Source of the DNA: Glycomyces artemisiae
GTDB lineage: Bacteria > Actinomycetota > Actinomycetes > Mycobacteriales > Micromonosporaceae
Direction of reading: 5' to 3'
Length of the DNA: 64,000 nt
Assembly (NCBI RefSeq): GCF_003002955.1
Contig: NZ_PVTJ01000003.1
Coordinates: forward strand, 62,001-126,000
Shown here: positions 15,309 through 18,401 of the stretch, piece by piece
Position numbering within the stretch: the first letter of the stretch is position 1
Layout of the letters: every line of letters begins with the position of its first letter
Translations under genes and position numbers: made by a program
Notes under the pieces: model-generated
Seen by the model: only the letters and a program-made list of their open reading frames with translations
The model's database searches: none
What the model was told of the DNA's origin: nothing

Positions 15309-16403
15309 TTACGCGCGGCGCTCGCGGCCGGCGCGGACCGCGGCGGCCAGTTCGTTCAGCAGCCGCTCGGTCTCGTCCCAGCCGATGCACGCGTCGGTGA
15401 CGGACTTGCCGTAGACGAGCGTGTCGAGCGGGGCGGGCTCCTGGCGGCCCGGCTCGATGAAGCTCTCGATCATGACGCCCGCGATGCCCCGCTCCCCCGC
15501 GGCGATCCGGTCGCGGACCTCGCGCACGACCTCGGCCTGGCGCACGTGGTCCTTGCCGGAGTTGGCGTGGCTGGCGTCGACCACGAGCGACTCGGTCATG
15601 CCGTGCTTGGCGAGGAGCGCCAGCGCGTCGCGCACGTCGGCGGGCCCGTAGTTCGGGCCGCCGCGCCCGCCGCGCAGGATGATGTGGCAGTCGGGGTTGC
15701 CGCTGGTGGAGACGATGGAGGCGCGGCCGTCCTCGTCGACGCCGAAGAACGTGTGCTCCCCGGCGGCCGAGCGGCAGCCGTCGATCGCGCCGCCGAGGTC
15801 GCCGTCGGTGGAGTTCTTGAAGCCGATGGGCATCGAAAGCCCGGAGGCGAGCTGGCGGTGGACCTGCGACTCGGTCGTGCGGGCGCCGATCGCGCCCCAG
15901 GAGACGGCGTCGGCGATGTGCTGCGGGCTCAGCGGCTCCAGGAACTCGCAGCCGACCGGCAGGCCCGTGTCGAGGACGTCGAGGAGGACCTGGCGGGCGA
16001 GGCGCAGGCCGGTCGCGATGTCGTGGGTGCCGTTGAGGTGCGGGTCGTTGATGAGGCCCTTCCAGCCGACGGTGGTGCGGGGCTTCTCGAAGTACACGCG
16101 CATGACGACGAGCAGGTCGTCCGCGAGCGGGGCCGCGGCGGCGGCGAGGCGCTGCGCGTAGTCGCGGGCGGCGGCCGGGTCGTGGACCGAGCAGGGGCCC
16201 ACGACGAGGAGGAGCCGGTCGTCGTCGCCGGCGAGGACGTCCTTGACGGCGGCGCGGCTGTCGGCGACGAGGGCGGCGCGGTCGGGTCCCAGCGGCAGCT
16301 CGCCGCGGAGGACGGCCGGGGCGACGAGCGGCTGGAAGCCGCGGATGCGCAGGTCGCTGGTCTGCGGGGCGTCGCCGGTGGTGTGTTCGGCAGGCGTGCT
16401 CAT
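15309..16403 (-). CDS. aroG: 3-deoxy-7-phosphoheptulonate (DAHP) synthase, type I
   Basis: 364 residues. It condenses phosphoenolpyruvate and erythrose 4-phosphate, the first step of the shikimate pathway. Class I (AroF/G/H-like) motifs are [72 protein letters not shown], and metal ligands in [10 protein letters not shown], IESFI and TDACIGW. The ATG at 16403 follows AGAGGAG; a more distal ATG at 16448 would start inside the leader hairpin region. Expression is probably controlled by an aromatic leader peptide (16533-16601) and hairpins, one of which covers the ribosome site. Confidence 0.93.
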   Translation of the reverse strand: [364 protein letters not shown]

Positions 16404-16416
16404 CGAGCGGAAGTCT

Positions 16417-16566
16417 CCTCTGGTGTGCAGAGGCGGGTGGAAATCCACTCAGAGCTGCCCGGTGCCGGCCCGCCTCAACGACGAACGGCAGAGACGGATG
16501 TCTCTGCCGCGTGGCTCCGGGTGTCCGTGTGGTCAGCGCAAGTGACCGCGGGCTCCACCCGGAGCC
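16417..16566 (-). promoter_or_regulatory. Leader hairpins of DAHP synthase, probable attenuator
   Basis: Three dyads occur in the transcript leader. Stem 1 is 11 bp, 16556-16566 with 16513-16523, and its 5' arm lies inside the leader peptide just after the aromatic codons. Stem 2 is 9 bp, 16500-16508 with 16487-16495 (GGCAGAGAC/GTCTCTGCC). Stem 3 is 6 bp, 16428-16433 with 16417-16422 (CCTCTG/CAGAGG), and overlaps the AGGAG ribosome site of the synthase. The stem 2 5' arm can pair instead with CTCTGC of stem 3, which would free the ribosome site. There is no U-run, so control of translation is more likely than termination. Confidence 0.6.
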
Positions 16567-16601
16567 TGCGTAAAGCGCTGATACCAGCGGACGGCGGACA
16601 T
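16533..16601 (-). CDS. Aromatic leader peptide upstream of DAHP synthase
   Basis: A 22-codon open frame, ATG at 16601 and TGA at 16533-16535. Its first ten residues read MSAVRWYQRF, so Trp6, Tyr7 and Phe10, one codon for each aromatic end product, fall within five codons. The 11-bp stem arm begins two codons after Phe10, so a ribosome stalled there would cover it. No ribosome site precedes the ATG. A TACGGT -10-like element ends 6 bp before it, so the mRNA may be leaderless. Peptide function is inferred from codon content, position and hairpins. Confidence 0.6.
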   Translation of the reverse strand: MSAVRWYQRFTQAPGGARGHLR

Positions 16602-16643
16602 GCGGGAACCGTAGCACACGGTCCCCGCATGCCGCGAACTCGA

Positions 16644-18401
16644 CTAGTAAGAGAGGCCGTGGCCGAAGCGGAAACGGGGGTCCTTCGTGTCGAAGGGCAC
16701 GTCCGGGCGGCTGGCGGCGACGGCTTCGGTGGACGACGGGACGTCGAACGGGAGCCTCCCGCGCGGCCGGTCCTTCCCGGTGAGGACGTCGAGGAGGGCC
16801 GCCGCGCCGGTGCCGTAGGTGGCGGTGAGGGCGGCGGCGGTGTCGGCGACGGGGCCGAGGATCGCGGGCCGGTCGAGGAACACGTCCACCACGGTGGGGA
16901 CGGCGGCGGCGACCTTCGCGAGGTGCGCGAGGGTCTCGTCCGGGAAGTCGAGCGACCCGGCGTGGAAGAAGTTCTCGAACACGGTGCCGCGCTCCTCGAA
17001 GGGCGCCTGGAGCCGGATGACGGCGGCGTCGGCCTCCTCGGGGGCGGCGACGACGGTGCCGTACGCGGCGGCGGTCTCGGGGTCGATGCCTTCGACGTAC
17101 AGCTTGCGGCCCTTGGGGAGCGGGAGGATGCCGTCGTTGGTCAGCAGCGTCACGGAGGCGCGCTGGGCGGCCTCCCCGGCGGCGGTGAACTCCGACGAGC
17201 CGACGGTGCGCTCGGCAGCGTCCTCGTCGACGAACGGGCGGTCGAACAGGCCGAGCACGAACTTCTCGCGCAGGAGGCGGCGCGCGGACACGTCGAGGCG
17301 GTCCTCGCTCACCTCCCCGGCCTTGACGATGTCGACCAGGAGGTCGGGGATCGCTTCGCCGCCGAACTGGTCGGCGCCCGCGTCGAGGATCTTGATCATC
17401 CGCTCGCGCGGGCTCAGGTGCTCGACGCCCCAGGCGCGGGCCGGGAACGGCTGGCCCATGATCTCCGAATCGGAGATGAGGCCCCAGTCGGTGCAGACGA
17501 TCCCGTCGAAGCCGTACCGCTCGCGCAGGAGCCCGGTGATGACGGACTTGTTGAAGCCGAAGCCGACCTCCTCGTACTCGGTGCCCACGGGCATCCCGTA
17601 GTACGGCATGATCTGCGAGACCTTCGCCGCGAACGCGGCCTCGAACGGCTCCAGGTGGGTCTCGAAGCGCCCGCCGGGGTAGACCTGCTCGCGCCCGTAC
17701 TGGAAGTGCGGGTCCTCGCCGTCCTTCTGCGGGCCGCCGCCGGGGAAGTGCTTCGCCATGGCGGCCACGGACTCCGGGCCGAGCTCGGGGCCCTGGAAGC
17801 CGCGGATGTAGGCGGCGCCGAGGCGCGCGACGGTGGCCGGGTCCTCGCCGAAGGTGTTGAGCTGGCGGGCCCAGCGCGAGTCCGTGGCGATGTCGATCTG
17901 CGGGTGGAGGGCCACGCGGATGCCGACGGCCGTGTACTCGCGGCGGGCGATGTCGCCGAAGCGCTCCACCAGGCCCTCGTCGCCGAGTGCGCCGAAGCCG
18001 AGCATGTCGGGCCACTGCGAGAACGCGCCGGAGGCCAGCGCGGCCAAGGGGTTGTCACTGAAGGCGTGCCGCGGGTCGGTCGAGATGGTGACCGGGATGC
18101 CCAGGCGGGTCTTCAGGGCCGCCTCCTGGAGGCGGTTGTGCCAGCGCGCGCCGAGGCGCGCGGAGGGCATGCCGCCGAGGAGGTTGAAGTGGCTCATGAG
18201 GAGCCCGTTCACGTACTCCTCGTTGGACGGCCCGCCGAACATCGGGTCGGGTCCGGCCAGCTCGCCGTCCTGGCTGGGGACGATCATGGTGTGGAAGAAC
18301 AGCCCGGCCTTCTCCTCCAGGGTCATCTGGGAGAGGAGGATCTCGACGCGGTCCTCCACGGGCAGCGCGGCGTCCCGGTAGCGGGTGTCTGGATCGGACA
18401 T
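16644..18401 (-). CDS. Glycoside hydrolase family 3 enzyme
   Basis: 585 residues, no signal peptide, so it acts inside the cell on imported oligosaccharides. The N-terminal (beta/alpha)8 domain runs to about residue 370. Features are VEILLSQMTLEEKAGL, HPQIDIATDSRWARQLNTFGEDP, AMAKHFPGGGPQKDG and the nucleophile region FDGIVCTDWG (Asp). The second alpha/beta domain follows (VTLLTNDGILPLPKG), ending GRLPFDVPSS and RFRFGHGLSY. There is no fibronectin-III-like third domain, so it is short for the family. Likely a beta-glucosidase or beta-xylosidase type enzyme. It is 14 bp downstream of an MFS transporter gene in the same operon, both facing the duplicated TetR gene. Confidence 0.9.
   Translation of the reverse strand: MSDPDTRYRDAALPVEDRVEILLSQMTLEEKAGLFFHTMIVPSQDGELAGPDPMFGGPSNEEYVNGLLMSHFNLLGGMPSARLGARWHNRLQEAALKTRLGIPVTISTDPRHAFSDNPLAALASGAFSQWPDMLGFGALGDEGLVERFGDIARREYTAVGIRVALHPQIDIATDSRWARQLNTFGEDPATVARLGAAYIRGFQGPELGPESVAAMAKHFPGGGPQKDGEDPHFQYGREQVYPGGRFETHLEPFEAAFAAKVSQIMPYYGMPVGTEYEEVGFGFNKSVITGLLRERYGFDGIVCTDWGLISDSEIMGQPFPARAWGVEHLSPRERMIKILDAGADQFGGEAIPDLLVDIVKAGEVSEDRLDVSARRLLREKFVLGLFDRPFVDEDAAERTVGSSEFTAAGEAAQRASVTLLTNDGILPLPKGRKLYVEGIDPETAAAYGTVVAAPEEADAAVIRLQAPFEERGTVFENFFHAGSLDFPDETLAHLAKVAAAVPTVVDVFLDRPAILGPVADTAAALTATYGTGAAALLDVLTGKDRPRGRLPFDVPSSTEAVAASRPDVPFDTKDPRFRFGHGLSY

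Follow-up and report, generated by a model that had tools for sequence, protein, structure and literature searches.

A putative relative of the aroR–aroF attenuator, with codons for three aromatic amino acids, precedes a DAHP synthase gene of Glycomyces and recurs before most of the class I synthase genes sampled

The class I DAHP synthase gene of Glycomyces artemisiae follows a short leader reading frame and a set of predicted RNA helices which, compared across genomes, point to a relative of the aroR–aroF attenuator of Corynebacterium glutamicum: one that carries codons for three amino acids and whose terminator is worn down. It reaches well beyond this single locus, with leaders in 166 of the 210 class I synthase loci we sampled. 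Taken as a whole, it is probably a ribosome-stalling attenuator of the aroR–aroF kind, in which a single leader peptide would report how far tRNA-Trp, tRNA-Tyr and tRNA-Phe are charged. A sensing role is likely, and we hold it highly probable that what is sensed is aromatic aminoacyl-tRNA; the exact order of states set out below is tentative and may well need redrawing.

By the window we mean the whole 64,000-nucleotide stretch of Glycomyces DNA that was analysed, and positions are counted from its first letter (Table 1). All parts of the element lie on the minus strand of the genome, as does the synthase gene. The gap between leader and synthase is 130 nt, and an upstream reading frame, also on this strand, has its end at 16644. 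The genome also encodes a class II DAHP synthase (L255). An earlier account made from the letters alone (the sequence-only reading) had pointed to the 22-codon leader 130 nt before the synthase, with one codon for each end product of the pathway, to the left arm of an 11-bp stem behind those codons, and to the lack of a U-run in the window. All of this is in the sequence, the stem being the A:C helix and the tail after the terminator-like hairpin reading TTCGTCGTTG. Like the leaders of the aroR–aroF type, the element has a short frame with clustered aromatic codons, as in the Corynebacterium form, a class I DAHP synthase directly downstream, and A:C behind the sensor codons, a helix common to groups I and II and the Corynebacterium-like loci.

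Table 1. Features of the element and of the gene it precedes, with positions in the window.
Feature	Position	Strand	Basis or remarks
-10-like box TACGGT, preceded by TGC (extended -10)	16608–16613	minus	sequence; ends 6 nt upstream of leader ATG
Leader reading frame, 22 codons plus stop, MSAVRWYQRFTQAPGGARGHLR	16533–16601	minus	ATG 16601, stop 16533; homologues in 166/210 loci
Sensor codons TGG TAT CAG CGC TTT (Trp6 Tyr7 Gln Arg Phe10)	16572–16586	minus	sequence; codon counts over leaders
P1, 5' arm GTCCG with 3' arm CGGAC	16588–16592 with 16523–16527	minus	alignment and swap test
P2, 5' arm CAGCGC with 3' arm GCGCTG	16575–16580 with 16534–16539	minus	84% paired, two-sided change in 1/6 pairs
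P3, the A:B local hairpin GGCTCC-GGGT-GGAGCC, exclusive with A:C	16551–16566	minus	-10.4 kcal/mol; 98% paired, pairs changed on one side only
A, GGCTCCGGGTG, left arm of the 11-bp helix	16556–16566	minus	swap test, window scan, alignment
C, CACCCGGAGCC, right arm of A:C, alternatively pairs with F	16513–16523	minus	A:C -23.7 kcal/mol
T, terminator-like hairpin, arms CGGCAGAGAC/GTCTCTGCCG, pairing GGCAGAGAC/GTCTCTGCC	16486–16509	minus	-18.3 kcal/mol; two-sided changes in 8/9 counted pairs
F, GGCACCGGG, a degenerate repeat of A beyond T that can pair with C in place of A	16458–16466	minus	C:F swap test, groups I and II
F':H hairpin, GGCGGG (16469–16474) with CCCGCC (16432–16437), just upstream of the ribosome site	16432–16474	minus	alignment, window scan
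Ribosome site AGGAG (16415–16419) and SD hairpin CCTCTG/CAGAGG (16417–16433)	16415–16433	minus	clade-specific; 5/19 Glycomyces loci
Class I (AroFGH-type) DAHP synthase gene, the regulated gene, ATG at 16403	15309–16403	minus	TIGR00034 489 bits; PF00793 296 bits

Our sample of 210 class I synthase loci joined 14 loci from a Corynebacterium-like genus to 196 others, themselves made up of 159 loci and 37 of 80 named ones (36 actinobacterial, plus L018, a Chloroflexia record). A strict script, which looked for a leader and a complementary arm, accepted 123 of the 196. A wider script was applied to 201 of the 210 and marked leaders in 172; six of these (L143, L144, L159, L179, L186 and L199) were rejected by eye as false before counting, leaving 166. 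That figure is a lower bound: leaders visible by eye in L016, L046 and L180 were missed by the script. Nine loci outside the wider script, in which no leader was seen, stand in the denominator (L008, L010, L011, L014, L015, L018, L019, L022 and L028). Loci without a leader include those of Nocardiopsis, Bifidobacterium and Gardnerella. Two loci, L133 and L134, carry a divergent leader (MLSGRFYG..) with other arms before their class I DAHP synthase, an RNA design unlike the rest.

Tyr is encoded in all 166 leaders, Phe in 163, Trp in 134, and all three together in 132; the counts hold four repeats (L002/L097, L006/L193, L009/L156 and L033/L173), without which Trp stands at 130 of 162 and the full set at 128 of 162. 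Among the 32 Trp-less leaders are four from Glycomyces (L087, L088, L096 and L098, with Y-x-R-F forms) and the Phe-Tyr-Phe forms of the Corynebacterium-like genus. Conserved Trp, Tyr and Phe codons and covarying stems were what the sequence-only reading had proposed to look for in relatives, and both are found there, the compensatory changes falling in A:C and T. A covariance model built from 32 sequences, the window locus included, scores that locus at 119 bits, the runner-up in the Glycomyces genome reaching 22.7 bits (E 0.011). This difference, and the recurrence of leader and stems in Glycomyces, place the element beyond chance.

In the synthase leaders, Tyr is written TAT in 182 of 185 cases and Phe is written TTT in 177 of 201, and both codons are rare in the GC3-rich reading frames of the window (TAT 13 of 321, TTT 7 of 359). 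Just upstream, a box of the form TA...T precedes 203 of 203 leaders, 166 before synthases and 37 before chorismate mutases, a score inflated by a script that preferred start codons with a box, which hardly accounts for the constant spacing of 6 or 7 nt in 192 of them; control windows farther upstream hold the box in 9 of 1015 cases. Such a spacing of a -10-like box from most start codons suggests a transcript that begins at or next to the ATG, so that the leader would probably be translated leaderless.

Comparison argues for the leader, its codons and the helices P1, P2, A:C and T, all four helices being backed by covariation, and more weakly for C:F. In the 32-sequence alignment, 98.3% of A:C cells are paired and 3 of its 11 pairs show changes on both sides, and for A:C and T jointly the observed values were reached by none of 500 shuffles. 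In a second alignment of 29 sequences, which takes in leaders before chorismate mutase and tyrosyl-tRNA synthetase genes, none of 500 shuffles matched A:C and T on four of five measures, and 27 of 500 did so on the fifth. The swap test compares the duplex energy of an arm with its own partner and with swapped partners over 98 non-redundant loci (49 group I, 31 group II, 9 group III and 9 Corynebacterium-like), groups I, II and Corynebacterium-like being tested individually. For A:C the own and swapped values were -30.1 and -25.1 in group I, -29.8 and -25.3 in group II, and -22.1 and -18.7 in the Corynebacterium-like loci, with 0 of 2000 permutations reaching the own value in each. For C:F they were -22.3 and -19.9 in group I and -26.1 and -24.2 in group II (again 0 of 2000). 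P1 gave 0 of 2000 in all three groups, and P2 gave 0 of 2000 in group I and 2 of 2000 in group II; P2 found no support in the Corynebacterium-like group (680 of 2000). Permutation leaves kinship in place, and the negative controls on the same loci (A:F, A:T5 and C:T5, for which the own value was reached in 185 to 2000 of 2000 permutations) argue against relatedness as the cause. When 351 window pairs were scanned, A:C, P1, P2, P3, C:F and F:H ranked high in group I, as did most of these helices in group II. F:H itself gave 2 of 2000 in group II and 304 of 2000 in group I with broad windows, and z of 4.2–4.8 in group I with narrower ones.

The predicted helices form a chain of exclusive choices: A lies in P3 or A:C, C in A:C or C:F, and F in C:F or F:H. 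The nine group III loci (L020, L023, L027, L036, L053, L183, L184, L187 and L201, which are Rhodococcus/Nocardia/Amycolatopsis-like) seemingly have no T; there C:F (CGAGCCGG/CCGGCTCG) forms a hairpin where T would be, mostly with no U-run.

Relatives of the element also stand before other genes. Two models of the element, R1 and R2, match 66 and 82 of 394 genomes of the class, respectively; 78 of the 394 have a class I synthase match. We examined most of the R1 and R2 matches away from a class I synthase. The first 20 such stretches held 14 chorismate mutases, one tyrosyl-tRNA synthetase, one Cys/Met enzyme, three spurious matches and the window's own locus; a further 28 held 23 leaders before chorismate mutase and five spurious matches. 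The spurious ones (L270, L280, L281, L306, L307 and L309–L311) were so judged by eye and dropped. CM_2 was found in 17 of 17 downstream proteins tested, and of the other 20 chorismate mutases twelve have the motif and eight were assigned by likeness to neighbours (two cut by contig ends). Eleven of the 14 have a longer N-terminal part, DAHP-synthase-like by Pfam in the four tested, one of them below the cut-off. These long chorismate mutases (L264–L266, L268, L269, L272, L273, L276, L278, L279 and L283) have Trp-less leaders and lie in genomes with no class I synthase match. In the stretch before the Cys/Met PLP enzyme (L271, about 60–330), a frame resembling a leader contains Cys and Met codons and is accompanied by a terminator-like hairpin; this may be a separate sulfur-amino-acid attenuator.

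All 37 chorismate-mutase leaders encode Phe, 25 encode Tyr and none encodes Trp. Set against Trp in 134 of 166 synthase leaders, this gives a Fisher value of 9e-22, computed over leaders that share ancestry. The single tyrosyl-tRNA synthetase leader (L267, 2162–2299, minus strand) has Tyr only, in the same layout, with A as GGCTCCGG, C as CCGGAGCC, and T followed by TTTCGTCG. Sensor codons thus tend to suit the downstream enzyme, a trend rather than a clean test because of the shared ancestry and because the synthase leaders of one genus (f22, g88) are Trp-less too. Over 31 non-redundant chorismate-mutase leaders A:C gave 0 of 5000, and within subgroups 287, 2840 and 8 of 5000. C:F found no support before chorismate mutase: 3705 of 5000 with one choice of window and 112 of 5000 with a second, for which the A:F control gave 67 of 5000.

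How might such a leader work? Transcription would start at or beside the leader ATG, making translation leaderless. With ample aromatic amino acids the ribosome would reach the stop codon, A:C would pair, T would form, and synthase expression would stay low. A shortage of any one of the three would halt the ribosome at codons 6–10, where, by footprint reasoning, it would cover the arms of P1 and P2, and part of A when waiting at Phe10. A would then change partner, C would be freed for F, and synthase expression would rise. We infer the stalling and the output step, and the direction of the response (low when replete, raised on shortage) is taken by analogy with C. glutamicum. Support for the attenuator reading comes from the conservation of leader and stems, the bias to TAT and TTT, the fit of codons to downstream enzyme, the covariation of exclusive helices, and the match of the Corynebacterium-like relatives to aroR–aroF. 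Other findings stand against it. No helix overlapping the arms of T covaries, the window's clade has no U-run, and predicted access to the ribosome site changes inconsistently; C:F lacks support before chorismate mutase, P2 lacks it in the Corynebacterium-like group, and 32 of 166 leaders are Trp-less. The accessible text of one paper, moreover, reports that Tyr supply has no effect in C. glutamicum (PMC11802643).

The output step is where our reading is least settled, and reduced termination around T and a better translation start seem to us about equally likely, because no alternative partner of T was found and accessibility of the ribosome site is inconsistent. The window has no real U-run after T (16476–16485), as a classical trp-type terminator would, and the sequence-only reading took this to suggest control of translation in place of classical termination. 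That termination is excluded finds no support in comparison, since most relatives keep a short run: at least three T residues follow the T hairpin in 37 of 49 group I, 25 of 31 group II, 6 of 9 Corynebacterium-like and 1 of 9 group III non-redundant loci, the script having treated the C:F hairpin as T in group III. Within the five loci of the window's clade the tail is GTTCGTCG in four and TTTCGTCG in L084. As most relatives keep a short T-run, L084 included, the absence is most simply a recent loss in this clade rather than the mark of a different mechanism. Nor did the switch proposed in the sequence-only reading hold up, in which GGCAGAGAC would pair with CTCTGC, otherwise part of a stem over the ribosome site. 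In the window GGCAGAGAC could indeed pair with CCTCTGC (-9.5 kcal/mol), and the SD hairpin that covers AGGAG is worth -7.0 kcal/mol; the latter is present in 5 of 19 Glycomyces loci and so is not general, and only the hairpin mate covaries with the GGCAGAGAC arm, so we rejected the switch as not conserved. A search for an antiterminator, in groups I and II separately and in both with the Corynebacterium-like loci, turned up no partner that covaries strongly with T5 or T3 besides each other (the next best had a z of 3.8 over 89 loci), and an antiterminator pairing with T was set aside as well. For the window, where the longest frame was used and the folded RNA therefore began at a GTG lying 18 nt before the leader ATG, T formed in all six states. 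In constrained folding of group I, a stall at the first aromatic codon raised A:C from 0.50 to 0.82, and one at the last lowered it to 0.23, with C:F up to 0.42. Given these opposite effects, the first and last sensor codons may differ in what they do.

Could the element act on translation only, with T as a spacer or an RNA-stability hairpin and the chain of A:C, C:F and F:H gating initiation at the synthase? The lack of a covarying antiterminator for T and of a U-run in the window's clade would suit such an arrangement. So would a chain that ends beside the ribosome site, where one window pair (Te+33:SD-14) reaches a z of 5.2 in group I, and a ribosome site whose accessibility in the window is 0.59 with C:F forced and 0.34 with A:C. 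Over 80 loci, however, the change has no consistent direction, accessibility being higher with C:F than with A:C in 27 of 49 and 14 of 31, and sequestration of the ribosome site, expected of an erm-type translation attenuator, is inconsistent as a shared output. Swap tests of F with the ribosome site were negative in groups I and II, and those of H with it gave 17 of 2000 in group I and were negative in group II (805 of 2000). T-runs persist in most group I and II relatives, and F was not seen by eye in the Corynebacterium-like loci. We consider control of translation only to be unlikely, if well worth bearing in mind.

A further explanation would dispense with tRNA charging as the signal. Arrest by the nascent chain, through conserved RF..APGGA residues, would explain why APGGA after the aromatic codons is kept in many loci. 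Arms A and B encode those very residues, though, so RNA pairing explains their conservation; the residues also vary by group (RQPARTP, PTDPSAA and PNGSG elsewhere) and the aromatic codons by downstream gene, and we give nascent-chain arrest little credence. That the leader is an incidental leaderless frame, with T as a constitutive partial terminator and nothing sensed, is very improbable in the face of codons that track the downstream enzyme, rare TAT and TTT codons that are retained, and exclusive helices that covary. A known riboswitch or T-box element has scarcely any claim at all: an Rfam scan of the window gave no match at the gathering score, and a scan of eight relatives at E up to 1 gave only an unrelated cobalamin riboswitch. 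That riboswitch (L053, 985–1229, minus strand, 81.8 bits) lies near the synthase of a Rhodococcus.

The aroR–aroF attenuator of C. glutamicum was reportedly first described by Neshat et al. in 2014. Like it, our element sets aromatic codons in a short leader ahead of a class I DAHP synthase, and the Corynebacterium-like loci in our sample share with the window both arms, A and C, and the layout as far as T. Unlike the window, with its Trp-Tyr-Phe, aroR–aroF and its Corynebacterium-like kin have Phe-Tyr-Phe, mostly a strong U-run, and no copy of F that we could see by eye. Acholeplasma belongs to another phylum. As far as the accessible text goes, its uORFC-13-1 motif also places a uORF and a terminator before aroF, the DAHP synthase gene, but with a U run encoding at least one Phe and another structure (PMC8632094). 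The accessible parts of the C. glutamicum papers describe an aroF leader with Phe-Tyr-Phe that is induced by Phe limitation, Tyr having no effect (PMC4046766, PMC11802643), so that the reported response is to Phe and not to Tyr (PMC11802643). Parts of other papers have aroR replaced in engineering, under the name of a translational regulatory leader (PMC7356990), and leader-bearing ilv, aro and trp genes rising under starvation (PMC6892785). The trp leaders of Streptomyces and Corynebacterium, in the text accessible, have a leader peptide with sensor codons as here, for a single amino acid, unlike the window (PMC1262725, PMC8079986). The same portions state that conserved RNA structures were not seen before phenylalanine and tyrosine operons in Actinobacteria (PMC1262725), and list eight leaders of S. 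lividans, none for DAHP synthase, with a leaderless start for trpL1 (PMC8079986). For a mycobacterium, ribosome-protected leaders are listed, and the text of section 8 does not name the DAHP synthase gene (PMC4974804). The sequence-only reading had called control of this kind possibly undescribed in the group. With aroR–aroF of C. glutamicum known, that is too broad; for the Trp-Tyr-Phe form, and for relatives before chorismate mutase or tyrosyl-tRNA synthetase, we found no description in the literature searched, which lay mostly outside subscription papers.

There may be a larger family here, though we put the chances slightly below those of its being otherwise: a class-wide set of leaderless attenuators, unnamed as far as we searched, in which one RNA frame carries an exchangeable code (Trp, Tyr and Phe before DAHP synthase, Tyr and Phe before chorismate mutase, Tyr before tyrosyl-tRNA synthetase), the position of the ribosome sets an exclusive chain of helices (P1–P3, A:C, C:F and F:H) with no classical antiterminator, and one leader computes a shortage of any of three amino acids. 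What we have is a set of natural variants that keep a constant RNA frame and differ in sensor codons according to the downstream enzyme, which makes direct tests of stalling, codon choice and switching possible. It is also an example of high-GC attenuation with neither a strong U-run nor an overlapping antiterminator, and it makes an attenuator already in industrial use, aroR of C. glutamicum, part of a broad family that regulates the aromatic pathway.
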